Shown one piece after another: positions 4,044 to 42,608 of a stretch of 61,549 nucleotides of DNA. Source of the DNA: an uncultured Candidatus Saccharibacteria bacterium (GTDB taxonomy: Bacteria > Patescibacteriota > Saccharimonadia > Saccharimonadales > Saccharimonadaceae); contig CANENS010000007.1 in NCBI GenBank assembly GCA_947428935.1, forward strand, positions 1 to 61,549, read 5' to 3'. The notes beneath the pieces are model-generated. The model was given only the letters and a program-made list of their open reading frames with translations, made no database searches and was not told where the DNA came from. The translations under genes were made by a program, and so were the position numbers. Positions within the stretch are counted from its first letter, which is position 1. Each line of letters begins with the position of its first letter.

Positions 4044-6017
4044 ATGAGTAGCTTTAGATATTATTATTCCGCAGCGATAAAAGATTTTTTGTGCCAGTCC
4101 AACAATGAAATATTGGGCGCGCTCCATGCTAACTGCGCTTCCGCAGATGTAACCATCCAACAGAGCAAAGCATGGGAATCTGAGATACAAATATTAAAGA
4201 ATCAGCTTCAGGGATTTGATGGCAGAATTATTTTTGAATATACGATCCCTAGGATGGGCAAACGCATAGATGTAGTAGTGCTGTACTGGAATATTGTTTT
4301 TCTACTGGAATTCAAATGCGGTGAAACAGAATATCAACAGTCTGCATATGATCAAGTGTATGATTATGCTCTAGACTTGCGTAATTTTCAGAAAGAAAGT
4401 CATGACAAATTAATCGTTCCGATTGTTGTGTCGACTAGGGCGCCTGCTGTAGACTGCGAGATTTGCGAACGTGAACGAATCATAGAGCCGCTATACTGTA
4501 ATGCTAACAATATTTCTACTGCAGTCGAAACCGCAGCTTCACGCTACAATGAGCGGAACTTTGATTATACAGCCTGGGAGAATTCGGAATATCTACCTAC
4601 GCCTACGATTGTGGAAGCGGCACAAGCATTATATCGTGGCCACAATGTGCATGATATAACAAGAAGCGACGCGGGTGCGGAAAATTTAACCGTAACAACA
4701 AGCGAAATCAATCACATTATTGAATACAGCAAGGCAAATAGTAGAAAATCAATCTGTTTTGTTACGGGTGTGCCTGGCGCCGGTAAAACTTTAGTAGGTT
4801 TAAATATTGCTATACAACGTTCTAACGCTAAGCAGGGCGAGCACGCAGTATTTTTATCTGGTAACTATCCACTGGTAACGGTTTTGCAAGAAGCTCTTGC
4901 TCGCGACAAAGTAGAGCGTGAAAAACAAAATGGTCTTCGTGTCTCCAAAACAGATGCCCTGCGTAGTACGTCTGCCTTTATCCAAATTGTCCACAAATAT
5001 CGAGATTCCTTCGTAGACAATGACAATATTCCTCCAGAGCGAGTTGCGATTTTTGATGAAGCGCAGCGCGCTTGGACGCAAGGCATGATTAAAAAATTTA
5101 TGGCAACTAAGAAAGGTATTTCGTCATTTCCGTATAGTGAACCGGAATTTTTAATTAGTACAATGGATCGTCATAATGACTGGGCGGTTATCGTGTGTCT
5201 TGTTGGCGGCGGACAGGAGATCAACACTGGCGAAGCGGGTTTACCAGAATGGTTCGACGCATTACGACAATCTTTTTTGCACTGGGATATTTACATCACG
5301 CCGCAACTCAATGACAATGAATATCGTCTAGACAGAAGTTGGAGCGGCATGATTGACGGCATACGAACTTTTGAGCGGACCGAATTGCATTTAGCTACTT
5401 CGGTCCGCTCGTTTAGGACGCCACACCTAGCAGCTTTTGTAAAAGCAATGCTAGACGTGGATGTTGATAAGGCAAAAAGTTTATATCAGTGCATTAAGGA
5501 CAAGTATCCGATTGTACTTACGCGAGATTTAGCAACGGCGAAAACTTGGGTGCGTGATCATTGTCGAGGCACTACACGATACGGCTTACTCGCCAGTAGC
5601 GGTGCTTTACGTTTAAAACCCGAAGGTATTTTTGTCAAAAATGATATTTCTGTAGCTAATTGGTTTTTGAACGATAAAAATGATGTGCGGTCGAGTTATG
5701 CGTTAGAAGATGTTGTGACAGAATTTGATATTCAAGGGCTAGAGCTGGATTATTCTATTGTGGCATGGGACGCAGATTTTCGTTTTATGAACGGGGAATG
5801 GGCTTATTATAATTTTGTTGGTAGTCGCTGGAATAGAGTTAGCTCCAATGAGCGCCGGCTATATTTGAAAAATGCATACAGAGTATTACTTACGCGCGCA
5901 AGGCAGGGGATGGTAATTTTTATACCAAAGGGAGATGATAGAGATCAGAGTCGCAAAAACGAGTATTATGAAGACATTTACGACTATTTAAAAGAAATCG
6001 GGATTAAGGTTATATAG
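4044..6017 (+). CDS. PD-(D/E)XK nuclease-like + DUF2075 helicase/ATPase protein
   Basis: 657 residues. The N-terminal region has IIFEYTIPRMGKRIDVVVL...LLEFKCG (about residues 56-92), a PD-(D/E)XK-like E...D...E-x-K arrangement. The central part is a DUF2075-type P-loop ATPase: Walker A GVPGAGKT (~residues 242-249), Walker B VAIFDEAQRAW (~333-343), and the C-terminal RVLLTRARQGMVIFIP typical of superfamily 1 helicase-like proteins. Proteins of this build are found in defence islands. A TATAAT lies at 4009-4014, leaving a ~23-base leader with a weak GGG before the ATG. It stands alone between repeat R1 and the CBASS pair. Its action on nucleic acid is inferred from domains only. Confidence 0.8.
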   Translation: MSSFRYYYSAAIKDFLCQSNNEILGALHANCASADVTIQQSKAWESEIQILKNQLQGFDGRIIFEYTIPRMGKRIDVVVLYWNIVFLLEFKCGETEYQQSAYDQVYDYALDLRNFQKESHDKLIVPIVVSTRAPAVDCEICERERIIEPLYCNANNISTAVETAASRYNERNFDYTAWENSEYLPTPTIVEAAQALYRGHNVHDITRSDAGAENLTVTTSEINHIIEYSKANSRKSICFVTGVPGAGKTLVGLNIAIQRSNAKQGEHAVFLSGNYPLVTVLQEALARDKVEREKQNGLRVSKTDALRSTSAFIQIVHKYRDSFVDNDNIPPERVAIFDEAQRAWTQGMIKKFMATKKGISSFPYSEPEFLISTMDRHNDWAVIVCLVGGGQEINTGEAGLPEWFDALRQSFLHWDIYITPQLNDNEYRLDRSWSGMIDGIRTFERTELHLATSVRSFRTPHLAAFVKAMLDVDVDKAKSLYQCIKDKYPIVLTRDLATAKTWVRDHCRGTTRYGLLASSGALRLKPEGIFVKNDISVANWFLNDKNDVRSSYALEDVVTEFDIQGLELDYSIVAWDADFRFMNGEWAYYNFVGSRWNRVSSNERRLYLKNAYRVLLTRARQGMVIFIPKGDDRDQSRKNEYYEDIYDYLKEIGIKVI

Positions 6018-6355: not shown

Positions 6356-7153
6356 ATGACCATTAATACATATCTTGAAGAGTTAGGAAGCAGTCTAGTA
6401 CTGTCTGAGAATGAAAAGAGTAACGTAGCAACATCAATTACTACACTAGAGTCGCGTCTCAATAGTTATTTTGACAACTTGGCTGAAGACTTCGCATTTG
6501 GCTCCTATACTAGGCGAACAATTTTGCCCCGCTCCGCCGATGAGCAGTCAGATATTGACTATATGGTGGTTTTCAACGGCGGCGAGAAATATGCACCTCA
6601 AACCTGCTTGAATTGGCTAAAGGGCTTTGCCGAATACCACTATCGAGCCTCAGAGATACATCAGTCATCTCCAACTATGGTGCTTGAACTAAACCATATC
6701 AAGTTTGAGCTAGTGCCTGCATACACTGAGTATGAGGCTTACTACATTCCGGACGGAAGAGGAGGGTGGATGTTCACTTCCCCAAACAACTTTAACAAAA
6801 AACTTACTGAAGCAAACAATAACAACGGCTATAAGGTTAAACCCACTATCCGCTTGATCAAGCATTGGAATATCGCCAAAAATAACAGAGACTTAGCCTC
6901 TTTCAAGATGGAACAAAAGATTGCAGACTTATTATACTGCCCTCAATGCGGATATTCTAACTATGTCGATTATCTGTTAAAAACACTAAAAGAATTCTAC
7001 GGCTGCTTTTATTTGTATGGCTATACAACTTCAGGTGGCGCCACTAGAACGAACAATGCCATCAGTCGCATCCATGATGCTGTTTGGTACGAAAATCATA
7101 ATCAGCAAGACAGAGCCATGTACTGCATTAAGAGTGTTTTTCCGGAGTTGTAG
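6356..7153 (+). CDS. CD-NTase (cGAS/DncV-like nucleotidyltransferase) of a CBASS system
   Basis: 265 residues. The N-terminal nucleotidyltransferase fold is clear: FGSYTRRT with GS at 49-50, DEQSDIDYMVVF with the metal-binding D66-x-D68, and a third acidic position in IKFELVPA (E118). RPTIRLIKHWN is the following helix typical of SMODS-type CD-NTases. It should make a cyclic oligonucleotide signal on phage infection. The next gene starts 2 bases after its stop and encodes a multi-TM protein, the expected effector. No cap2/cap3 ancillary genes are present, so this is a minimal (type I) layout. The nucleotide product cannot be told from the sequence. Start supported by GAGGAGG. Confidence 0.85.
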   Translation: MTINTYLEELGSSLVLSENEKSNVATSITTLESRLNSYFDNLAEDFAFGSYTRRTILPRSADEQSDIDYMVVFNGGEKYAPQTCLNWLKGFAEYHYRASEIHQSSPTMVLELNHIKFELVPAYTEYEAYYIPDGRGGWMFTSPNNFNKKLTEANNNNGYKVKPTIRLIKHWNIAKNNRDLASFKMEQKIADLLYCPQCGYSNYVDYLLKTLKEFYGCFYLYGYTTSGGATRTNNAISRIHDAVWYENHNQQDRAMYCIKSVFPEL

Positions 7154-7155
7154 TC

Positions 7156-7935
7156 ATGGCCGTCTCTGAGCGTAAGGACGAGGTGGACGAGTTATATAGA
7201 GTTGCATCTAGTGTAAGTATTGCGGCGAAGGCTACTTTTATTATCAGCTTAGTCTGCTCAGCAATTTTGCTAATTAATTTCGAGAGCGTGTTTAGAGGCG
7301 TCATCGAAGTTATTGCGGTCGTCTCAACCATAACCTATGTCATTTTGGCAAACCTTCACGATATGTTTTTCTTCTATCGAGCCGAGTCTGAAAGAAGAAA
7401 AGTCCTAATTAGTAATGCTTTGGGCATAGATGCTTCATCAAAGGAGACAAGTTTATATTACAATAATCCAGAGAAGCAGTCAGTTGTAAGGCTTGGGATT
7501 AATAGTTATGAAAGCGTTTTCTTTACAAAAAAGGTTGTTGCTAAAATGCTTATACCCCGTAGCATTGGAGGACTAATGACAATAGCGCTATATATAGCAC
7601 TATTGCTTTCATCTAGCGATCTTGGCATTATCATCCTTGTGACGCAAACCTTATTTTCTGGAGAAATACTAATCGGTATCATTAAGCTTGTATTCTATTA
7701 TTTTAAGCTCAATGCGGTACAAGGAGAATTCTATGGCATCTTGATAAAATGTAGAGCGTCGAACCAGAGAGGGATTAATGCTCTGTTGCTCGACGCAGTA
7801 ATTGACTATGAGTGCCTAAAGAGCTATTGTCAGATTGCGTTATCGTCGAAGATTTTTAATAAATATAATGAGAAATGGTCAGGAGAGTGGAAGAGCTTAT
7901 ATCGGAAAATTAAAAAAGCCGCCAATAGACCATAG
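7156..7935 (+). CDS. Four-TM CBASS effector candidate (S-4TM-like)
   Basis: 259 residues with hydrophobic segments at about 18-40, 45-70, 130-152 and 155-183. Between the pairs is a soluble stretch with YYNNPEKQSVVRLGINSYESVFFTKK. It starts 2 bases after the CD-NTase stop, so it is co-transcribed and probably translationally coupled. SMODS-associated 4TM proteins are membrane effectors thought to open pores when a cyclic nucleotide binds; the fit to that family is by TM layout and context, not by a firm motif. The C-terminal ~70 residues are soluble and basic. Alternative: another class of membrane CBASS effector. Confidence 0.7.
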   Translation: MAVSERKDEVDELYRVASSVSIAAKATFIISLVCSAILLINFESVFRGVIEVIAVVSTITYVILANLHDMFFFYRAESERRKVLISNALGIDASSKETSLYYNNPEKQSVVRLGINSYESVFFTKKVVAKMLIPRSIGGLMTIALYIALLLSSSDLGIIILVTQTLFSGEILIGIIKLVFYYFKLNAVQGEFYGILIKCRASNQRGINALLLDAVIDYECLKSYCQIALSSKIFNKYNEKWSGEWKSLYRKIKKAANRP

Positions 7936-8317: not shown

Positions 8318-8359
8318 TTAGCACTTAAGGTTGAAGAGTGCTAATAACTGTGCTAAAAT
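8318..8359 (+). promoter_or_regulatory. CIRCE operator overlapping the promoter of the OLD gene
   Basis: TTAGCACTT, 9 bases, GAGTGCTAA (8318-8344) differs from the CIRCE consensus TTAGCACTC-N9-GAGTGCTAA at one base. The likely promoter is TTGAAG (8331-8336, inside CIRCE), 17 bp, TAAAAT (8354-8359), ending 6 bases before the ATG at 8366. The same arrangement stands before hrcA at 41239. CIRCE is the binding site of HrcA, encoded in this window. Confidence 0.85.
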
Positions 8360-8365
8360 GAGGTT

Positions 8366-10264
8366 ATGAAACTGACGGAAATTAGAATTGTAGGTTACAA
8401 ATCAATTGATGATTTGTCTTTCCCGATTAAAAAGTACGGCACTAGTTACACAACAATATTGCTCGGTAAGAACGAGACCGGGAAAAGTAATGTGTTAAGT
8501 GCGCTTGCTCTGCTAAATGAAGTACGTAACGGAACTAAGGTGGATTTTTCAGCTATAAAGAAACAGATTGACCCAGAACCGGAAACTGTTTCGGTTTTTT
8601 ATTCGGTTGAGCCAGAAAATGATACATACCGCGATTTTGTAGCCGCAAAACTAACGCTTCCGGAAAGCCTTGTGAATAAAATTAAAGTCACCAAAGCAGT
8701 GGAAGAAGTATGGTTGCAAGATGGTAACGACCAATATGGCAAGGAATGGAAAATAGACCTGATACCGAATATTCTAAAAGACGTCTTTTACGTGCAAAAA
8801 ACAATGTCTAACGGTAACGATGTTGAGAAAAATACCTATTCAATCAAGGATAAGAAAGAATTAACCGAAGAAGAGTTGGGCGGCTATTCGGAACTCAATT
8901 GGGATAAATTTGTTGAAATTGTGCAGCCAACCCTGGAAGAGTACTTCAATATGCATGAAATCCCTGTGTCAGTTTGGCGCGCAAAGGATAGTGATCTTAT
9001 TCAAGGCAGCATCCCACTCAAGGAATTTTCAGAAAAGCCATCTGCGTACCCTGCACTTCAGAATATGTTTGCCCTTTCTGGTTTTGTCAATAAAGAACAA
9101 ATCCAAAGGAAAATTCAGGAAATCGAGAAGAACTCCAATCATCGACGGAAGCTAGATAAAAAACTTTCAGATGAATCAACTAAGTATATTAATACTAAAT
9201 GGAAAGAGCACAAGGTTAAAATCGATGCTCGCATATCAGATGAACTTAACATCCAGATTAAGGTTCAAGACGGTGACAATGAGGATTGCTATTATGATAT
9301 GCGAGATAGAAGTGAGGGCTTTAAACAGTTTATATCGCTGCTTTTAAGCATCTCCATTAAAAATCAATCTGGAATTATTAAGGATAATCTGATTATAATC
9401 GATGAGCCTGAAGTACATCTACATCCATCTGGTATACGCTATATGCTTGAAGAGTTGGTAAAAATAGGTAAGAATAATTATGTTTTCTTGGCCACTCATT
9501 CAAATTTTATGATTGACCGTAACGCTAAAGAGAGACACTTTCTATTGACAAAGCGGCGAGGTGTGACGCAGGCGAAGCAAGTGTCATCGGACGAAAATCT
9601 GTGTGACGATGAAATTTTGCTAGCGGCTTTTGGTGTTGATGCAATCAGAGATTTTTTGTCACCCTACAAACTCTTAGTAGAAGGAGCATCCGACAAAATT
9701 CTTTTGCAAAAAGCTTTAGGACAAGTTGCCCCTGAATTAGATATACGTATTACAAACGGTAATGGGAACAATATAGTTGCCATAGCATCCAAACTGGCTT
9801 TTGATGATGTATATCCGATTGTTATCGTTGATGACGATATAGCCGGGCAAACATCTAAAGAAAGCATACTTAAAATTAAAGGTGGGTTTAATGAAGATAG
9901 CGTGTATACTATTAGAGATTTGGTCGGTTCTATCAAGCATGGCGCGACGGTTGAGGACACATTACCAAACGAATATCTACAGACAAAAGCCAACTCAGTA
10001 CTAACTGAGCCTGAGCATAATTTACCTAACATAGAACTTACGGAAGATAATCTATTTTGCGAGCAGCTTGTTAAACATCTACAAACTAGTCTGTCTAAGG
10101 ACGGAACACTCACCGCAAAACAGCAAAAGGAAAAGCTAAATATGATTATGGATGAAGTAAAAACCAAAATTTCAAGTGATTATGATACAAAGAACATAGA
10201 TAAGAAAGCGCCAATACTATTCGAACTTGCGCAAGCCATAGCAGTTAAATTCAAACACCATTGA
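8366..10264 (+). CDS. OLD-family ATP-dependent nuclease (ATPase + TOPRIM)
   Basis: 632 residues. ABC-type ATPase: Walker A GKNETGKS (~33-40), Walker B LIIIDEPEVHLHPSG (~343-357) and a following H-switch THSNFM. C-terminal TOPRIM: LLVEGASDK (~431-439) with the acidic IVDDD (~486-490). This is the OLD (overcoming lysogenization defect) layout; such proteins cut DNA and serve in phage defence, often with a partner. No gajB-like UvrD helicase is next to it, so it is a stand-alone (class 1-like) protein. The mRNA should be leaderless. The CIRCE operator over the promoter implies repression by HrcA and release under heat or protein-folding stress. Confidence 0.88.
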   Translation: MKLTEIRIVGYKSIDDLSFPIKKYGTSYTTILLGKNETGKSNVLSALALLNEVRNGTKVDFSAIKKQIDPEPETVSVFYSVEPENDTYRDFVAAKLTLPESLVNKIKVTKAVEEVWLQDGNDQYGKEWKIDLIPNILKDVFYVQKTMSNGNDVEKNTYSIKDKKELTEEELGGYSELNWDKFVEIVQPTLEEYFNMHEIPVSVWRAKDSDLIQGSIPLKEFSEKPSAYPALQNMFALSGFVNKEQIQRKIQEIEKNSNHRRKLDKKLSDESTKYINTKWKEHKVKIDARISDELNIQIKVQDGDNEDCYYDMRDRSEGFKQFISLLLSISIKNQSGIIKDNLIIIDEPEVHLHPSGIRYMLEELVKIGKNNYVFLATHSNFMIDRNAKERHFLLTKRRGVTQAKQVSSDENLCDDEILLAAFGVDAIRDFLSPYKLLVEGASDKILLQKALGQVAPELDIRITNGNGNNIVAIASKLAFDDVYPIVIVDDDIAGQTSKESILKIKGGFNEDSVYTIRDLVGSIKHGATVEDTLPNEYLQTKANSVLTEPEHNLPNIELTEDNLFCEQLVKHLQTSLSKDGTLTAKQQKEKLNMIMDEVKTKISSDYDTKNIDKKAPILFELAQAIAVKFKHH

Positions 10265-10294: not shown

Positions 10295-11398
10295 TTATGT
10301 AGCAATAATTAAAACTTCTTTCGTTTCTTTCGTCGACAGGGCATATTTATAATCTTGACTATACTTTACTGATATATGGCTTTTGTATTTTTTTAAAAGC
10401 CCACATAACTGATTAATACTAGGTATGCCATCTTGACGATATGAGATGACGATTTTAGAGGTATTAAACTTTTTTATAATATCCTCAAATGCCACAGTAA
10501 TTTGATTCTTGTCCACCCATGGGCTTCGCTGCTGCATCTTAATCGGTTTATGCTTATATTTGTCACACAAAAGATCTGGCCATAACTTATAATTTGCGAT
10601 ACCCTCCAGAAAGTGATAGAAGTCAAGGTAATCAGTCTTGGATCCCTTGTCGGATATGTATGGAGTATCGAGATATAGTAAATCAATTCCGTCACCATCA
10701 ATATCTAAGGCATTTTGATTGTAGGATATGCATCTAAATCCATTGGAGAATATAGCATCGTTTGCCTCTTTAGCAAAATGTCTAAAATAATCTTCAAATG
10801 GCTTATCCCAGGTACTTTTATTACCAAAACTTCGCTTTACGTCAGAAAGACGCAGGTATAGATTTGCTCTATGGAAAAGATTGTATGGCCGCTTAATAAT
10901 GCAGGACTGAAATAATGAAAAATAGGCAATAGCTTGTTTATATTCATTATTAAGTTGATGAATATTATAAATAACCTCATCAAGCCATATATTCTCTTCA
11001 TCAGTATAGAAAATGTTTGCAAAATTGTTCTGTATAAAGGTATATTCTCCTGTCCTATTTTTTACTAAAAAATCTATGTCCGAAGCGTTCAGCAACGTGG
11101 TGTCATTCTCTATTAATGCCTTGCCGATAATATAATTAAACTTCAAAATATCATTGTAATATACAACCTTATTTTTTCGTTTTAGCATATGAGAAACCGA
11201 CCCAGTGCCACCAAAAGCATCTAGTACTGTCATAAAATCGATGTCGGAAATGCTTTCCCAAATCCAATCGGTGAGTTTATTTTTTGATCCCTGATAGCGA
11301 GTTGATGGGAATGGGTGAATTTCATCACTTACAGTTACTGACTCCCTATTTATCTGTGGAAGAAGGGTGCATTGTATCGGTGCACTTAAATTTCTCAT
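10295..11398 (-). CDS. D12-class adenine-N6 DNA methyltransferase
   Basis: 367 residues. Motif I is seen as STRYQGSKNKLTDWI...VLDAFGGTGSVSHMLK (residues ~32-70), the hallmark of D12-class (Dam/EcoRV-type) adenine methyltransferases, and motif IV is LLYLDTPYISDKGS (~240). The catalytic tetrad reads DTPY, not the usual DPPY. It follows the EcoRV-like nuclease gene with 2 bases between stop and ATG, in the order R then M, so both come from the promoter before the nuclease. It should protect host GATATC sites if the specificity matches EcoRV; this is inference. Confidence 0.85.
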   Translation of the reverse strand: MRNLSAPIQCTLLPQINRESVTVSDEIHPFPSTRYQGSKNKLTDWIWESISDIDFMTVLDAFGGTGSVSHMLKRKNKVVYYNDILKFNYIIGKALIENDTTLLNASDIDFLVKNRTGEYTFIQNNFANIFYTDEENIWLDEVIYNIHQLNNEYKQAIAYFSLFQSCIIKRPYNLFHRANLYLRLSDVKRSFGNKSTWDKPFEDYFRHFAKEANDAIFSNGFRCISYNQNALDIDGDGIDLLYLDTPYISDKGSKTDYLDFYHFLEGIANYKLWPDLLCDKYKHKPIKMQQRSPWVDKNQITVAFEDIIKKFNTSKIVISYRQDGIPSINQLCGLLKKYKSHISVKYSQDYKYALSTKETKEVLIIAT

Positions 11399-11400
11399 TT

Positions 11401-12213
11401 TTAATCACCATTCTTTAAGACTGTTATATCTTTTAGTTTTGGAAGATTACTTTTATATTGGATATATTCTTTCAGGTTTGAATATGGGATTGTGTCACCT
11501 CTCACCATATCTTTTGTTTGGTAAAACATCCAATAATCATCGAATACGGCAGCTCCTAGCTCAGAGAATGGCCCACTACCCTCTTTTAACTTCTGTATAT
11601 CCGTTATCGACCCTATATTTTTCGTGTTTCCAGATCCTGGCCTCGAAGCTGCAATTTTATACTTTTCTTGAACGATAAAATCAAAATCAGAAGCAACCGA
11701 AATAATACTATCCAAATCGTTTATAGAATAAACCTGCTCCTCGTCTATTTTGCTGGACTGCTGCGAATATATAACGCCTAAGACGAAATGGTGATTATAT
11801 TTCTCATACGGAAGAGTTATATTTTTGGTACTCGTTCGATTCCTGAAGTAACCGGTAAAAGCGCCGAGGGTAAAGCCGTTCACTTTATTTGCGGTTAATC
11901 GATAAGTTGACTTAATATCCATTGCAAAATATGTGTCATCGCTTTCATCAATAAAAGTAACATCCGGGTAATGATTCTGGTGTGCTGCTAGAACCATTTT
12001 TAGACCATTGTCTTTTGCAAATTTGAGAATTACCGGAAAAAGCATGAGTTCTATAATTTTAGAAACAACCTTAGTATCTATGGAAATTGTATATATTGTT
12101 TTGTAAATATCAATAAAGCCCTTAACTATCCAATCCTTTTTGTCATCCTGAAGCGCTGCAACATTTTCCGCTAGCGCTCCCTGAAGTTTTGTCTGAAAAT
12201 CAATTGCCTTCAT
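11401..12213 (-). CDS. EcoRV-like type II restriction endonuclease
   Basis: 270 residues from the ATG at 12213. The core HYPDVTFID...YFAMDIKSTYR carries the PD...D-x-K catalytic residues, and the following FTLGAFTGYFRNRTSTKNITLPYEKYNHHFVLGVIY matches the EcoRV pattern (FTLGGYTSFIRNNTKN...YPFDQY..H.I.GY.Y as remembered). EcoRV cuts GATATC. The annotated start is preferred because TATAAT (12225-12220) lies exactly 6 bases upstream; an in-frame ATG further upstream (12276) would span the promoter. Operon with the D12 methyltransferase. Confidence 0.82.
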   Translation of the reverse strand: MKAIDFQTKLQGALAENVAALQDDKKDWIVKGFIDIYKTIYTISIDTKVVSKIIELMLFPVILKFAKDNGLKMVLAAHQNHYPDVTFIDESDDTYFAMDIKSTYRLTANKVNGFTLGAFTGYFRNRTSTKNITLPYEKYNHHFVLGVIYSQQSSKIDEEQVYSINDLDSIISVASDFDFIVQEKYKIAASRPGSGNTKNIGSITDIQKLKEGSGPFSELGAAVFDDYWMFYQTKDMVRGDTIPYSNLKEYIQYKSNLPKLKDITVLKNGD

Positions 12214-12278
12214 GATATGATTATACCACATAATCTTAGAGGTTACCATCATACCAGGATGTTTCTTCGGAAGCACGC

Positions 12279-14957: not shown

Positions 14958-15851
14958 TTAGTTTGCATTATAGCCAAATTTCGGGTTGCGGGTTAGTAGT
15001 ACTTCTTTCCACCACGACTCCCGATCGAGAATAGTTTTATCGTCCGTTGTGGCTTTATGAATGTCGAGAATCGAGTAGCGGAAATTGTTCTTAACATAAT
15101 CTAAGCCTTGTGTTTCAACTAGGGATTTCAGCTCCCTATTCCCGCCGTGTCCGTTTTCAGCATAACTTTGCCAGCGACCGAGCAGCATCGTGTCGCCATA
15201 AGCCGATCCAACATAGCGTTTATTCGTGGCGACGTCGGTTATGAGGTAAACGCCTTTTTGGTTTTTCAGAGCAGTTTGCCAAGTTTTAAGGTTTAAGACG
15301 TATTTCAATTCCGACCAAGACAGGCTTAGATTTTCGTAGCCCGGAAACTCTGTTTCCGCCTCGTCATAAGGCTGTTCGAGAATGGTTTTAACGGTTAAGT
15401 GAGAAATCGCTTCTGGGTTACACATGACGATATTCATTGTTTTACGGTCTTCCCAAGTAATCACTAGCTTGCCGATATAGCCCGCCACCTCCGGAAACGC
15501 CGATTCGTCTGCCTCGACAAAAACTCTGCTATCATCGAGAACTTTATAAGCATTAACAAGTAGCCAGTCCTTGTCGCCGAATGGAATAAAACTAAGCACG
15601 TAGTCGCCGTTAATGTAGCGCTTGCGACCATTGGGGTTATGAGTTTTGACCGATTCGCGAACGAGATCTGCTTCGCCCTGGCTGTACATTTTTAGGAGTT
15701 CAAAACGGCGTGGCTTATCTCCGAGCCAAGGTTTAAACTCGTCCAATGTATTATTCGGGTCATAATCCCAGTCGCTATTAAAAACCAGCTTCAGTTTAGA
15801 AAGCTTTTCTTCTGGCAGGTTTAGTAGATCGGTAAGTTTGATAGTGCTCAT
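14958..15851 (-). CDS. GIY-YIG nuclease-domain protein
   Basis: 297 residues from ATG 15851 (MSTIKLTDLL), which has GAAAGGA upstream; an upstream in-frame ATG (15896) lacks this. The C-terminal third has KGVYLITDVATNKRYVGSAYG...LLGRWQSYAENGHGGNREL (~residues 195-240): the GVYLI...RYVGSA strand pair, the catalytic R (GRW) and a late E (DRESWW). The N-terminal ~190 residues are not recognised and may bind DNA. First gene of the operon with a ~170-base structured leader. Such GIY-YIG proteins are common in small mobile and defence contexts. Confidence 0.75.
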   Translation of the reverse strand: MSTIKLTDLLNLPEEKLSKLKLVFNSDWDYDPNNTLDEFKPWLGDKPRRFELLKMYSQGEADLVRESVKTHNPNGRKRYINGDYVLSFIPFGDKDWLLVNAYKVLDDSRVFVEADESAFPEVAGYIGKLVITWEDRKTMNIVMCNPEAISHLTVKTILEQPYDEAETEFPGYENLSLSWSELKYVLNLKTWQTALKNQKGVYLITDVATNKRYVGSAYGDTMLLGRWQSYAENGHGGNRELKSLVETQGLDYVKNNFRYSILDIHKATTDDKTILDRESWWKEVLLTRNPKFGYNAN

Positions 15852-16032
15852 TTTGCTCGTCCTTTCTCGGTCGCCTGCTAACAAAAATGCGACCATGTAC
15901 TAGTCGCTTAAACCTTAACAAACTCAGCTCCAAGAACCTAATTTGCGTACATAGCCGCATTTCTCCTTGGAGCTAGTGGCACTGGAAGCCATTAGCCTGA
16001 GAGTTAATTAAGATTTAAGCAATACTATTGTA
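15852..16032 (-). promoter_or_regulatory. Promoter and structured 5' leader of the GIY-YIG operon
   Basis: TGATACAAT (-10 at 16032-16027) precedes a ~170-base leader. It holds a perfect 9-bp inverted repeat AGCTCCAAG/CTTGGAGCT (15966-15974 with 15926-15934) enclosing a GCG/CGC inner stem, and a second stem GGTCGC/GCGACC close to the Shine-Dalgarno. The distal stem could mask or expose the ribosome site. No known riboswitch class recognised. Confidence 0.5.
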
Positions 16033-17240: not shown

Positions 17241-17574
17241 CACGCCGAGAGTTAAAACTGCGACTCAAGAAGAACTGGAGTGGGCAGCCGAAGCTCTAAC
17301 ATGGCATACGCACATTCGTGTAGATGAAGGATTAAATCAGATTACGCGTATTACCAGTAAATACGGCGATGAGGAATTCTTTGACGCATATAAACTCGCT
17401 GCGGAGCGGAAAGGTTCTGCCGAGATTGCCAAAGAGCTAGCATTGGTGCTTACCGATGGCTTTGGGATGGCTTATATCTCGCCGAGGCATTTTGATGTCG
17501 AGGAATTGGAAGGTATTATAGTAGACATGTGTTATGCAGAGATGGCGAAATGGGAGCGTAGACATGAGCGATAA
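17203..17574 (+). CDS. Element-borne hypothetical protein (123 aa)
   Basis: MANNKTQAVFKSSTPRV...; a mixed protein with FDVEELEGIIVDMCYAEMAKWERRH at the end. Shine-Dalgarno AAAGGAAA lies before the ATG inside the previous gene. Its stop overlaps the start of the helicase-like gene by 11 bases, so the three are one translational unit. Not recognised; a replication accessory role is possible by context. Confidence 0.6.
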   Translation: MANNKTQAVFKSSTPRVKTATQEELEWAAEALTWHTHIRVDEGLNQITRITSKYGDEEFFDAYKLAAERKGSAEIAKELALVLTDGFGMAYISPRHFDVEELEGIIVDMCYAEMAKWERRHER

Positions 17575-19159
17575 TAACGAGCAAAGAGATGACTCTACTT
17601 TAGTCGAAAAAGTTGTTCAAAAATTATCGCAGGACAACACACTATTCTGCAATAGTGAGGATAAACAGGCATATATAGCGATTCAAAAAAGCGGAAGAGT
17701 TGTATTTCAAATTCAAAGCGATGATTTTAGGGCATGGCTTCTAGGTTGGCACTTAGAGCAATATGGAAAAGTTTTGAGGCGAGCCATCGTAGAGGAAGTA
17801 GTTCAGAATGCTTGCGCCATTGCCCAGTATATCAATAAGCAGTCATATAAGCTTGGTATTAGAGTAAGTAGGGTGGATGACAATAATGCTAACCCTAAGG
17901 AGCTATATTACGACTTAGGCGATGCAGCCGTACATACTACCCGCGACAGATGGGAAATTGTGGACAATCCACCGATCGTGTTTAGACGCTTTTCTCACCA
18001 AGAGAAACAAGTTCTACCAGAGGCTACAAGCAGAAAAAGTGATATTGAACTGCTACATAAATATATTAACATTCAGAACAGAAACGACTGGCTACTATTT
18101 CTTACATTTATGATTTCGGCTTTTATCCCTGACTTTCCAAAGCCACTATTGCTATTGGTGGGAGCGCCTGGTGCAGGCAAAAGCACTTTAATGAAGTTAA
18201 CCAAACAATTGGTAGATCCGTCACTAATAGACGGTATAGGACAAATTCGCAATTGCGAGAGTATCATTCGGCCAGCCTCAAAGCATGCATTGCTTTACTT
18301 CGATAACATCAGTTATGTAAATCAAGACATTTCTGATACTTTGTGTGGAGTTGCAACTGGTACAAGCCTAGTAAATCGAAAAATGTACACAGATAGTGAA
18401 GAAGTTATATATAAAGTACAACGCTCTGTAATGTTGAATGGCGTTACGGAAATCCTGAGTCGCGAAGATATTCTTGACCGCTCGATCCCAGTCTCAGTAC
18501 AGCGTATTGACAGAAATAAGCGACTGAATGAAAACAAACTTATGAATGAGTTCAATTCAGACAAGCCCATCATTCTAGGTGCTATCTGTAACATTTTGGT
18601 GGATGTATTGCGCATTTATCCTAGCGTAAAGCTGGAGAAATATCCACGCATGGCGGATTTCGCTGGTTATGCTTTTGCAGTGGCGGAAGCTATGACTGGT
18701 TATTCCGGAGATGAATTCATAAAAGCGTATGACGCTGTTGAAGATCGTCAAGTTGCAACCGCTCTCAACGCAAGCCCGACAGCGCAAGCGGCACGATTCC
18801 TAGTTAGTAAAACTGGAGGTTGGCAAGGCACAGCAACAGACTTTCTAAACTTCACTTTTAATGACGGTAGAGTCGCTACGGCTGATGATCTAAATATCAT
18901 TCAGTCAATTCGTGAACAGCCTACGTGGTGCAGGAATGTATCAGCGCTCGGTAAATCTCTAAATAGAGCTGAGGCTACACTAAAAAGCTTGGGGATTGTC
19001 CTAGAACGCGGTTCGGACGGAAGTCCTATATATCGCAATGGGCAACGCTGGATTACGCTTACTGATATTAATTGGCAAAACAAGGCTAATAACTCAGATT
19101 CCGAGACCAGTGATCTAGGTACTAAAACAACTACTAAAGAAAATAAGGAGAACAAATGA
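17564..19159 (+). CDS. P-loop replication ATPase/helicase of the integrated element
   Basis: 531 residues from ATG 17564 (MSDNNEQRDD). Central ATPase: KPLLLLVGAPGAGKSTL (Walker A, ~residues 195-212), HALLYFDNIS (Walker B, ~245-254), QRSVMLNGVTEIL (sensor, ~290) and ILDRSIPVSVQRI (arginine finger). This is the D5/phage-primase-associated helicase layout seen in ICEs and prophages of Gram-positives. The N-terminal ~190 residues lack clear primase motifs. The C-terminal ~100 residues may be a winged helix. Likely acts on the excised circle. Start overlaps the previous stop; the next gene overlaps by 4 bases. Confidence 0.7.
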   Translation: MSDNNEQRDDSTLVEKVVQKLSQDNTLFCNSEDKQAYIAIQKSGRVVFQIQSDDFRAWLLGWHLEQYGKVLRRAIVEEVVQNACAIAQYINKQSYKLGIRVSRVDDNNANPKELYYDLGDAAVHTTRDRWEIVDNPPIVFRRFSHQEKQVLPEATSRKSDIELLHKYINIQNRNDWLLFLTFMISAFIPDFPKPLLLLVGAPGAGKSTLMKLTKQLVDPSLIDGIGQIRNCESIIRPASKHALLYFDNISYVNQDISDTLCGVATGTSLVNRKMYTDSEEVIYKVQRSVMLNGVTEILSREDILDRSIPVSVQRIDRNKRLNENKLMNEFNSDKPIILGAICNILVDVLRIYPSVKLEKYPRMADFAGYAFAVAEAMTGYSGDEFIKAYDAVEDRQVATALNASPTAQAARFLVSKTGGWQGTATDFLNFTFNDGRVATADDLNIIQSIREQPTWCRNVSALGKSLNRAEATLKSLGIVLERGSDGSPIYRNGQRWITLTDINWQNKANNSDSETSDLGTKTTTKENKENK

Positions 19160-19752: not shown

Positions 19753-21675
19753 ATGTCAATGAGAACAGACACCTCGAAACTAAAATTCGTTATCTACACT
19801 CGAAAATCTACTGAGAGTGCGGAGAGGCAAATTGCTTCATTGGGCGACCAGCTAGACGTAGCTAGAGAAATCGCCAAGCATAACAAATACAAAGTAGTAA
19901 AAACATTTAGTGAATCCGGCTCCGCACGTAAGGTTAACAATCGCCCACAATTTAATAAAATGCTTAAAATGATTGAATCTGGCGAAGTGAACGCGATTAT
20001 CTGCTGGCATACTAATCGTCTGGCTCGCAATCCGCTTGAAAGTGGTATGATTCAACAGTTACTAATTGACGGCAAAATTAAACTTATTCATACTCATGAT
20101 AAGATTTATTATCCAGAAGATAACATGGTTGTCTTTAGCGTTGAGGCTGGCATGAATGCGGAATACCCCAAGAAGCTTTCCGAGGATGTAAGACGTGGAG
20201 TTTATAGGAAGAATAAGCGAGGTGGATATAATACCGTTGCGCCGCAAGGCTACCTTAATAGCCATACTGACGATGGGCAAGCAATTATTATTGAAGATCC
20301 AAAAAGGTTTCCGCTTATCAAGAAAATGTTTAACCTTTATTTAACTGGTACATATAGTATTCCGGAGCTAGCCGATATAGTCAACAATGAGTGGGGGTAT
20401 TTGACTAAAAAACATAAAAAGCGCGGCGGAGTGCCACTAAGCACGACTACTATTAACGGTATTCTCTCTAATCCATTTTATATGGGTAAGATTAAAGATA
20501 TGGAAGATGAAACTATTCTTCATCAAGGCGCATGGAAGCCTATGATTACCGAAGAAGAATACTGGAGGGTCCAAGAGCTAAAGGGGGCTTATGCTATTAA
20601 ACATAATTTACGACCTAAATGTCGTGCGCATGGTAATCGTTACGATTTAAAAGGCTTAATTATTTGCGGCTGTTGCGGGTGTTCTATTATTGGTGAGAAA
20701 CATATCAGAAAAACGCTGGATGGTGGTGCGCACGAACACATTTATTATAAGTGTACTAAGAAAAGCCCGCACCGCAAATGTACTATGCGCGGCAGCATTA
20801 CCGAAGAAGAAGCAACGCGCCAAATTTACGCCCTACTTGACGACTATAGGATACACCCTACATTATACGAATGGTCTAAAAAGATTATGGAATCAATTCA
20901 TAAGAAAGAGATCGAGGAGCGCTATAACATTTCCGAAATGCATAATACAGCTTTGGAAAAATGCCAGAATAAGTTGAGTAAACTACTAGATATGCGCCTG
21001 AACCTAGACGATTACGATGAAGAAGATGACGAAATGTATAGGCAAAAAGAAAAAGAACTCAAAGACCAAATTAGACGTATTAAAGAAGCTCATCGAGAAG
21101 TTAAGGAGCTTAACCGAAACTGGTATGAGATTATTGGTAAAACTTTAGAGATTCTTCAAAGCCCAACCGAAAAATTTGATGCAGCGCTAGACGTAGGCGA
21201 GAAACGTGCTATATTACAAGCCATTGGGCCAAAAGCTGTACTTACAGAGCGAGAAGTGTTACGAGGCGGTAATTTAAGGGCCATAACGCGGAAAATTATA
21301 GAGGTAGAACCGTATCCATGGCTCGAAAAAATCGTAAAATCGTCAAAAAAATTAGCCCCTGAACTTGCTAAGGGCCAGAACGCAGTTTTACAGGGGCAAA
21401 ACAGTCAAAAACGGGCTTTATATTCTGTGTGGTCGGGGCGACTGGACTCGAACCAGCGACCTCACGGTCCCAAACCGTGTGCGCTACCAACTGTGCTACG
21501 CCCCGATACTTCAATTATACCACACCTTTTCATAATCTACCAGACCGCTGTGATGCAAAATTTGAATCGTGCAAGAAAATATCCAGGCGGGTTGCACCTA
21601 AATGTAGGGAACAAGCACTCGAATAGCGTTAGCCCGTCTCGCATTATCGATAGTAAATCACCATTAAGTCAATGA
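19753..21675 (+). CDS. Large serine recombinase (integrase) running into tRNA-Pro
   Basis: Resolvase domain: YTRKSTES (catalytic Ser near residue 17), SGSARKVNNRPQFNKML, ICWHTNRLARNP; then a recombinase domain (GGVPLSTTTINGILSNPFYMG) and a zinc ribbon (CGCCGCS...C...C) with a coiled coil after it, as in large serine integrases. AAGGAG stands before the ATG. The last ~85 codons are unusual: from about 21425 the frame reads through the reverse strand of the tRNA-Pro gene (SGRLDSNQRPHGPKP) and stops in flanking DNA at 21673-21675. So its C-terminus is probably made by the junction with host DNA. Confidence 0.85.
   Translation: MSMRTDTSKLKFVIYTRKSTESAERQIASLGDQLDVAREIAKHNKYKVVKTFSESGSARKVNNRPQFNKMLKMIESGEVNAIICWHTNRLARNPLESGMIQQLLIDGKIKLIHTHDKIYYPEDNMVVFSVEAGMNAEYPKKLSEDVRRGVYRKNKRGGYNTVAPQGYLNSHTDDGQAIIIEDPKRFPLIKKMFNLYLTGTYSIPELADIVNNEWGYLTKKHKKRGGVPLSTTTINGILSNPFYMGKIKDMEDETILHQGAWKPMITEEEYWRVQELKGAYAIKHNLRPKCRAHGNRYDLKGLIICGCCGCSIIGEKHIRKTLDGGAHEHIYYKCTKKSPHRKCTMRGSITEEEATRQIYALLDDYRIHPTLYEWSKKIMESIHKKEIEERYNISEMHNTALEKCQNKLSKLLDMRLNLDDYDEEDDEMYRQKEKELKDQIRRIKEAHREVKELNRNWYEIIGKTLEILQSPTEKFDAALDVGEKRAILQAIGPKAVLTEREVLRGGNLRAITRKIIEVEPYPWLEKIVKSSKKLAPELAKGQNAVLQGQNSQKRALYSVWSGRLDSNQRPHGPKPCALPTVLRPDTSIIPHLFIIYQTAVMQNLNRARKYPGGLHLNVGNKHSNSVSPSRIIDSKSPLSQ
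21430..21505 (-). tRNA. tRNA-Pro(TGG)
   Basis: On the minus strand it begins CGGGGCG and ends CGCCCCG-A-CCA with CCA encoded. Anticodon stem CACGG/CCGTG, loop TTTGGGA, anticodon TGG. TATAAT is at 21519-21514, upstream. Its 3' end faces the serine recombinase, which is the usual side for an integrated element. Confidence 0.93.
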
Positions 21676-41238: not shown

Positions 41239-41276
41239 TTAGCACACTTGACACTAGAGTGCTAAAGCTCTATAAT
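41239..41276 (+). promoter_or_regulatory. CIRCE operator and promoter of hrcA
   Basis: TTAGCACAC, 9 bases, GAGTGCTAA (41239-41265). The promoter TTGACA (41248-41253), 17 bp, TATAAT (41271-41276) lies across it, so bound HrcA blocks RNA polymerase. The -10 ends 6 bases before the ATG at 41283. Confidence 0.92.
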
Positions 41277-41282
41277 GAAATT

Positions 41283-42056
41283 ATGAGTTTGACGACGAGA
41301 CAGGAGGAAATCCTGTTTGCGATTATCGAAGAATACGCTGAGCTAGCCACGCCGGTTGGTAGCGTAACTTTAGCGAAGCTTTTTAGTGTCTCTTCGGCCA
41401 CGATTCGTGCCGAGATGTCGCGCCTCGAAGAAATGGGGTATATCGCGCAGCCGCATACTTCGGCCGGACGGGTGCCAACCGATGCCGGTTATCGCTATTA
41501 TGTTAATATTTTGACTGAGCATCCCGAGCGCACCAAAGCACGCGCGATTAATGCCAATCCGGAATCTAAGCCATCCAAATCTAAGCCGATCGAGCGCGAA
41601 AATCGCGTCTTAGAAGTGCGAGTCGGCTCACAAAACCGCGCGGATTATGCGATTCGTGGCGCCGTGAATTCGCTGGTTGAGCTGACGGGGAATCTTGGGC
41701 TAGCTACGATCGGCGATCAACTCTATATCTCTGGCATTTCGCGGCTTTTTACGCAACCGGAATTTTTAGACAACGCCAGAGTGCAGGCAGTCGCAGAGTT
41801 GCTAGACAACCTAGAGCCTTGGCTTCGAGAAGCCGCTCCGGGTCAGCCTTTGAATATCTTCATTGGTCAAGAAAATCCAATCGGCAAAACTTCTCAGGTT
41901 TCCCTGATTATTAGCCGTTTCCGTTCGCCTTATTCAGACAATAGCTATATTGGTGTGCTTGGCCCTACTCGGCAGAATTATGGTCGGGTTATGTCGCTAG
42001 TGCGTTACGCTGGCCAGATTTTAGAAAAAGCTTTAATGATGGATAAAATAAGTTAA
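41283..42056 (+). CDS. hrcA: Heat-inducible transcription repressor HrcA
   Basis: 257 residues from ATG 41283. N-terminal winged helix: LTTRQEEILFAIIEEYAELATPVGSVTLAKLF...SSATIRAEMSRLEEMGYIAQPHTSAGRVPTDAGYRYYV, an almost textbook HrcA start. The rest (IFIGQENP, QVSLIISRF, GVLGPTRQNYGRVMSLV) is the GAF-like part, a little short for the family (~340). An earlier GTG (41259) is in CIRCE and not used. Negative self-control through the CIRCE before it; the same operator stands before the OLD gene. grpE follows 9 bases later. Confidence 0.95.
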   Translation: MSLTTRQEEILFAIIEEYAELATPVGSVTLAKLFSVSSATIRAEMSRLEEMGYIAQPHTSAGRVPTDAGYRYYVNILTEHPERTKARAINANPESKPSKSKPIERENRVLEVRVGSQNRADYAIRGAVNSLVELTGNLGLATIGDQLYISGISRLFTQPEFLDNARVQAVAELLDNLEPWLREAAPGQPLNIFIGQENPIGKTSQVSLIISRFRSPYSDNSYIGVLGPTRQNYGRVMSLVRYAGQILEKALMMDKIS

Positions 42057-42065
42057 GGAGTAAAA

Positions 42066-42608
42066 ATGAAGCATAAGCAACAAGAATCACCTGCTGAAAA
42101 TCTGGAAGCGCAGCGAGAACAAAATATCGAAGCCGAACCTGCGCAAGAAGTGGTCTCGGAGGACGTACAGCATTTGCAAAATCCGCAAGACACGCAGGAA
42201 GCGGATTTGCGAATTGCCGAGCTGACGAACGATTTGCAGCGCACTCGAGCAGATTTCGAGAACTTTCGCAAGCAAATTGACCTACAGAGGATGCAGACTG
42301 TTGCCTTGACCAAAGCAGAAACTATAGAAAAATTTTTGCCATTGATTGATGATTTTGATCGTGCTTTGCGGGCTTATCCAGAACAACTTGAGCCTTTGCG
42401 CAAGAATTTCGAGAAGACATTACAGACGCTTGGCTTAGCTAAGATTAATTCCGAGCCAGACACTGAGTTTAACCCCGATATTCACGAAGCAGTATCCGTT
42501 GAAGATGGCGATGGCGACAACGAGGTGATTGTTGAGACCTTGCGTTCTGGCTATTTATATGGTGATAGTGTGATTCGCGCCGCTATGGTGAAGGTAAAAC
42601 GAGTCTAA
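42066..42608 (+). CDS. grpE: Nucleotide exchange factor GrpE
   Basis: 180 residues. Long acidic N-terminal coil (QEADLRIAELTNDLQRTRADFENFRKQ), then KFLPLIDDFDRALRAYP and the C-terminal beta part INSEPDTEFNPDIHEAVS...VETLRSGYLYGDSVIRAAMVKV, the GrpE signature. Cochaperone that releases ADP from DnaK. AAGGAG before the ATG; in operon with hrcA. dnaK/dnaJ do not follow here. Confidence 0.95.
   Translation: MKHKQQESPAENLEAQREQNIEAEPAQEVVSEDVQHLQNPQDTQEADLRIAELTNDLQRTRADFENFRKQIDLQRMQTVALTKAETIEKFLPLIDDFDRALRAYPEQLEPLRKNFEKTLQTLGLAKINSEPDTEFNPDIHEAVSVEDGDGDNEVIVETLRSGYLYGDSVIRAAMVKVKRV

Follow-up and report, generated by a model that had tools for sequence, protein, structure and literature searches.

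A CIRCE operator over the promoter of an OLD-family gene suggests HrcA control of a putative defence nuclease in a Candidatus Saccharibacteria bacterium

The DNA analysed in this work is a stretch of 61,549 nucleotides, referred to here as the window, from an uncultured Candidatus Saccharibacteria bacterium. Within its genome, which is 1.10 Mb in 27 contigs, the window corresponds to contig C7. The features of the window that are considered here are listed below.

4044 to 6017, + strand: Schlafen-group-3 helicase, candidate defence gene PDC-S41; no CIRCE
6356 to 7935, + strand: CBASS cyclase and 4TM effector; no CIRCE
8318 to 8344, + strand: CIRCE operator, with arms at 8318-8326 and 8336-8344
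8331 to 8359, + strand: sigma-70-type promoter TTGAAG-N17-TAAAAT with extended -10
8366 to 10264, + strand: OLD-family ATPase/Toprim gene, 632 aa (Pfam AAA_15 1.4e-23; PADLOC Old 2e-25)
10295 to 12276, - strand: EcoRV-type restriction-modification pair; no CIRCE
14958 to 15896, - strand: UzuA-like GIY-YIG gene, also on a sister element in genome G024
17534 to 19159, + strand: primase-like element ATPase, 35% identical to the element ATPase of contig C12
19753 to 21675, + strand: large serine recombinase, overlapping the tRNA-Pro gene at its 3' end
21430 to 21505, - strand: tRNA-Pro, the probable integration site of the element judging from the recombinase overlap
41239 to 41265, + strand: CIRCE of the hrcA-grpE operon (CIRCE pattern match)
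41283 to 42056, + strand: hrcA, 257 aa (Pfam HrcA 2.5e-18 and HrcA_DNA-bdg; TIGR00331 2.2e-53)
42066 to 42608, + strand: grpE, in the same operon as hrcA

The initial annotation had placed an OLD-family gene behind the operator, and this is borne out by the Pfam and PADLOC matches and by the Toprim residues of the protein. The protein exhibits an ABC ATPase with Walker motifs (GKNETGKS and IDEPE) and a C-terminal Toprim domain with E439 and the DxD residues D489 and D491, all of which are invariant in 12 homologues. The N-terminal ABC ATPase, the C-terminal Toprim domain, and the invariant acidic residues are shared with the single-gene Old, GajA, and the retron-Eco8 effector. The top PDB matches of the AlphaFold model (mean pLDDT 87.6) are GajA and retron effector ATPases, including that of retron-Eco8, with low global TM-scores (~0.33), so that the fold match backs the domains and the family rather than the overall architecture. 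Membership of Gabija was examined and no GajB helicase is found next to OLD, where the neighbours are the CBASS pair and the EcoRV-type pair; only the Schlafen helicase, a separate gene some 2.3 kb upstream of OLD, gives a weak match to GajB. The score of OLD against the retron-Eco8 effector model is 59.4 bits, compared with the NCBIfam equivalog cut-off of 250. This OLD thus differs from other OLD-family nucleases in being solitary, without an adjoining GajB, and in its heat-shock operator, which is absent from every homologue found. A defensive role of this OLD as a putative anti-phage nuclease is plausible.

OLD stands alone between the CBASS pair and the EcoRV-type pair, with the Schlafen helicase and the UzuA-like gene near. 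The OLD gene probably lies inside an integrative element, judging from the recombinase and the element ATPase that neighbour it. Direct repeats that would mark where this element ends on its left side were looked for and not found. A serine recombinase ORF that overlaps a tRNA gene was observed in three elements, namely those of the window, L241, and L254 (Pro, Arg, and Leu). These overlaps suggest that such elements integrate into tRNA genes.

The presence of a CIRCE before the OLD gene, which had been reported on sight of the sequence, was confirmed. The arms of the site are TTAGCACTT-N9-GAGTGCTAA, and the full site, TTAGCACTTAAGGTTGAAGAGTGCTAA on the + strand, differs at one position from the consensus inverted repeat TTAGCACTC-N9-GAGTGCTAA (17/18). 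The weight matrix, which was trained on 59 distinct chaperone sites of the genus, assigns 30.2 bits to the OLD CIRCE and 28.5 bits to the local hrcA CIRCE. The OLD CIRCE ranks 17/59 against those chaperone sites and falls inside the range of real sites. The window contains two CIRCE matches with at most 3 mismatches (at 8318 and 41239), compared with 0.02 expected from shuffles, and none of the other window promoters checked (n=13, outside hrcA) has a CIRCE site. The whole-genome scan yielded 7 sites and the reversed control pattern yielded 0.

The OLD promoter consists of TTGAAG at 8331-8336, a spacer of 17 nt, and TAAAAT at 8354-8359, and it carries an extended TG. As had been claimed, the CIRCE covers the -35, and the operator thus overlaps the promoter. 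The ATG at 8366 lies 7 nt past the -10, hence the mRNA is predicted to be leaderless, with a start that coincides with the ATG or adjoins it. The OLD CIRCE had also been described as having the same geometry as that of hrcA. The class of arrangement is indeed the same (operator over the -35, leaderless start), but the distance from the right arm to the -10 is 9 nt for OLD and 5 nt for the local hrcA. In layout, the OLD promoter matches those of hrcA and clpP in sister genera, and GCACTCTAGTTGAATGAGTGCCAGATCGTGCTAAAATAGAGGTATG in G309, which drives hrcA, is closely similar to the OLD promoter. The leaderless CIRCE promoter pattern was searched in 393 genomes of the order. Among the matches listed, 51 were classified by the gene behind them (21 clpP, 14 hrcA, 5 clpC, 5 dnaJ, and 6 unresolved), so that 45/51 drive hrcA, clpP, clpC, or dnaJ. 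The survey indicates that the OLD promoter has the genuine chaperone/protease promoter architecture of the order.

Two readings would remove HrcA from this promoter altogether. The idea that the OLD CIRCE is a chance match without function is hardly credible. CIRCE-like sites with 2-3 mismatches do exist within coding frames, for example in G123 (2) and G050 (4), but sites as strong as the OLD CIRCE are expected only about 2e-4 times per genome, before promoter position is demanded, and 19.5 million positions of simulated first-order Markov DNA contained 0 sites of at least 20 bits. The palindrome could instead be the operator of another regulator or an RNA hairpin, which we regard as very improbable, if slightly less so than chance. 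The palindrome can indeed fold as an RNA hairpin, but the predicted transcript starts near 8366, 3' of the palindrome, which leaves the palindrome outside the RNA made from this promoter. The folding of the region is also not better than that of many shuffles (z -1.4), and the sequence is the HrcA consensus, which all chaperone promoters of the genome use.

The hrcA gene is the only candidate regulator found for the OLD CIRCE and is located on the same contig. The protein is short, and its TIGR00331 score of 182 bits is below the cut-off of 197.2; its winged helix, including the recognition helix, is nonetheless conserved across the order. The consensus of HrcA-CIRCE and its usual targets are as given in PMC3842655 and PMC7464140. 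The remaining CIRCE sites of the genome are located at clpC, hrcA-grpE, dnaK (a pair), and groES-groEL, and a weaker one at a PIN-domain gene, so this genome encodes HrcA together with CIRCE-fronted chaperone genes. CIRCE is present in 118/118 same-genus genomes searched, with 1 match of the control pattern across all of them. The assignable sites in 10 same-genus genomes, picked for their high CIRCE counts, are at dnaK, groES, dnaJ, clpC, hrcA, and nrdR, and none of these 10 genomes has a defence gene behind an assignable CIRCE. The earlier view that CIRCE usually marks chaperone genes is therefore supported, since the sites are otherwise found at protein-folding/protease genes (clpC, dnaK, dnaJ, hrcA, and groES, with clpP elsewhere in the order) and at nrdR.

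Homologues of OLD with 29-52% identity were identified in other Saccharibacteria, Gastranaerophilales, an Eggerthellales MAG, an alphaproteobacterial MAG, a Spirochaetaceae MAG, Aquimarina, and a viral contig, and more distant homologues were found elsewhere too. The closest order-level homologues are carried by Candidatus Saccharibacteria. The same-genus genomes searched did not yield this OLD, neither phage records nor single-sequence scans of viral contigs and genome contigs gave any close relative, and the plasmid search with the OLD protein yielded weak partial matches only. None of the homologues with 29-52% identity has a CIRCE upstream, where the best matches differ at 6/18 positions or more, and the pairing of OLD and CIRCE was found in one genome only. 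The initial annotation had named absence from orthologous OLD loci as evidence against its proposal; the site is absent from these loci, and as a conserved trait of OLD it does not hold. As the nearest homologues are only ~50% identical, we take this absence as a sign of recent gain and not of missing function. The CIRCE was, by these comparisons, gained in this lineage after the OLD gene arrived and is not part of the OLD heritage. Weak 'OLD' BLAST matches beside CIRCE in three relatives proved to be DnaJ.

Three further CIRCE sites in front of non-chaperone genes were identified in the genus.

G000:C12:8033-8059 (L241:8033): CIRCE of a PIN_12 gene, 3 mismatches, 24.9 bits; same genome as OLD, on a sister element
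L254:15795-15821 (G024:C2:35795): CIRCE on the promoter of P0002, 2 mismatches, 27.5 bits; on a sister element in another species
L325:9197-9223 (G041:C2): CIRCE over the promoter of another OLD-like AAA_15 gene, 2 mismatches, 27.6 bits; in a different species of the genus

Together with OLD, four such genes are known, where three have nuclease or defence matches and one is unclassified. Three of the four are on or beside related serine-recombinase elements that are putatively integrated at tRNA genes. The PIN protein matches the PADLOC candidate PDC-S34 (2.2e-11) over its C-terminal part, and its gene adjoins a recombinase and the sister ATPase (35% identity, E 1e-104); this case is the weakest of the four. 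The leaderless P0002 gene behind the G024 site encodes 268 aa with no significant matches in Pfam, PADLOC, NCBIfam, PHROG, plasmid, or PDB searches. A PD-(D/E)XK-like motif (D-x-G...LPIEAKS) was spotted in P0002 by eye only. The OLD-like AAA_15 gene of G041 is only distantly related to the OLD of the window and is not on such an element, as no element ATPase or recombinase was found near it. The four cases were gathered partly by following leads and are not a complete census. The G041 case came from the listing of CIRCE in 12 further genomes; the CIRCE sites of about two dozen genomes were fully listed in this work. The G024 case came from the search with the element ATPase, where ~300 kb of sister elements were scanned and 1 further non-chaperone promoter site was identified; most sister elements examined have no CIRCE before their cargo. 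All four sites have different spacers but retain their arms, the pattern that selection on the operator would produce. Because they fall inside coding frames, the CIRCE-like pairs in G123 (L252) and the majority of the extra G050 sites were discounted.

The best explanation of these sequences is an HrcA link. With a probability of about 0.62 for the reading as a whole, the OLD nuclease gene was acquired horizontally, its promoter bears a functional CIRCE, and it is a member of the HrcA regulon that is derepressed under stress; HrcA binding, derepression, and a phage trigger are what we infer from it. It is established in Bacillus that HrcA represses as long as GroEL is free and loses its activity once unfolded protein occupies GroEL. 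This logic, applied to the OLD promoter, predicts a stress-induced nuclease. Free GroEL would keep HrcA active in the healthy cell, where HrcA on 8318-8344 would mask the -35 and block RNA polymerase. Misfolded protein, produced by heat or consisting of phage folding clients, would occupy GroEL and HrcA activity would be lost. OLD would then be made alongside the chaperones and the Clp protease from a leaderless mRNA that starts from or near the ATG. The protein-damage alarm of the cell thus probably arms the OLD defence too. Phage infection may be the source of the folding stress, by analogy with phiX174 in E. coli, for which PMC8125068 describes that the heat-shock response can be raised by phage.

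The proposal that a defence nuclease is placed under HrcA is sustained in part. In its favour are the high-quality CIRCE in a functional-looking promoter, the HrcA that is encoded, and the other nuclease-like CIRCE genes in the genus; against it is the lack of conservation in OLD homologues. It has also been reported that, in Lactobacillus plantarum, most of the non-chaperone genes predicted as HrcA targets showed no deregulation in an hrcA mutant (PMC3842655, Table 1). This result counts against HrcA control of OLD, though the non-chaperone sites there are much weaker, with p-values of 1e-7 or weaker compared with 3e-14 for hrcA (PMC3842655).

HrcA control could also be real and yet mean something other than stress-armed defence. 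The element may have recombined in an hrcA-like or groES-like CIRCE promoter that supplies the nuclease with a working promoter, with HrcA control carried along as baggage of no adaptive meaning. The close resemblance of the OLD promoter to hrcA promoters of sister genera, such as that of G309, and the absence of the site from homologues are as such a capture predicts, but four non-homologous or distantly related nuclease-like genes with four different spacers argue against a single capture, and the arms are still near-perfect despite the differing spacers. We therefore consider capture unlikely, though it deserves some weight. Less probable again is that repression is the purpose, where a universal and highly conserved repressor of the host would keep a toxic nuclease silent for safe carriage, with induction either incidental or for maintenance of the element. 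OLD and PIN are nuclease families, and their uncontrolled expression could harm the host; the occurrence of CIRCE in all 118 same-genus genomes searched and the recognition helix of HrcA, conserved in the order, are in keeping with this reading. However, other potentially toxic genes of the island (the EcoRV-like enzyme and the CBASS effector) have no site, and homologous OLD genes elsewhere manage without CIRCE.

The preferred reading, in which OLD belongs to the HrcA regulon, can be compared with known systems. The operator, the regulator family, the position of the operator over the promoter, and the chaperone targets are the same as in the class I regulon of Bacillus subtilis, whereas the regulon here would include an anti-phage-type nuclease, and CIRCE extends to clpC and clpP in the order and, in certain species, to nrdR. 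The CIRCE-bearing Hsp20 and GroES genes of viral contigs in IMG/VR are likewise on mobile DNA and use the HrcA operator of the host, but those genes are chaperones and the gene here is a putative nuclease gene. CIRCE has been described as the operator of chaperone operons, and no description of a link between HrcA/CIRCE and a defence nuclease was found in the literature searched, which lay largely outside subscription journals and preprints. Should the HrcA regulon indeed contain a defence nuclease, the folding load would be a plausible internal alarm for infection, and this would be one answer to how costly defence nucleases stay off and then get induced. The wider pattern of CIRCE-fronted nuclease-like genes, which rests on four cases, is of more interest than the single site. 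We suggest only tentatively, and with more doubt than belief, that nuclease defence genes acquired horizontally have been put under HrcA/GroEL time and again in Saccharibacteria, above all by their integrative elements, where chaperone overload would be the trigger of a delayed defence and chaperone titration would serve as a phage sensor.

Other CIRCE sites were observed in the course of this work. NrdR-like regulator genes in three species of the genus (L017, L043, and L072) have a perfect or 1-mismatch CIRCE upstream. Apparent rpmI-rplT ribosomal genes in two species have CIRCE-like palindromes upstream, at L314:904-930 (2 mismatches) and L321:1542-1568 (3 mismatches). A RelB-type antitoxin gene beside a gyrB-like gene has a 2-mismatch CIRCE upstream at L077:1501-1527 (G050:C26). 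Among the IMG/VR viral contigs, an exact CIRCE is located 28 nt before an Hsp20-like gene in L090, L102, L108, L123, and others, and GroES is preceded by CIRCE at 19 viral-contig sites. The viral contig L105 exhibits 4 tandem CIRCE-like copies that are 49 bp apart (L105:5375-5548), which are possibly a phage operator array.
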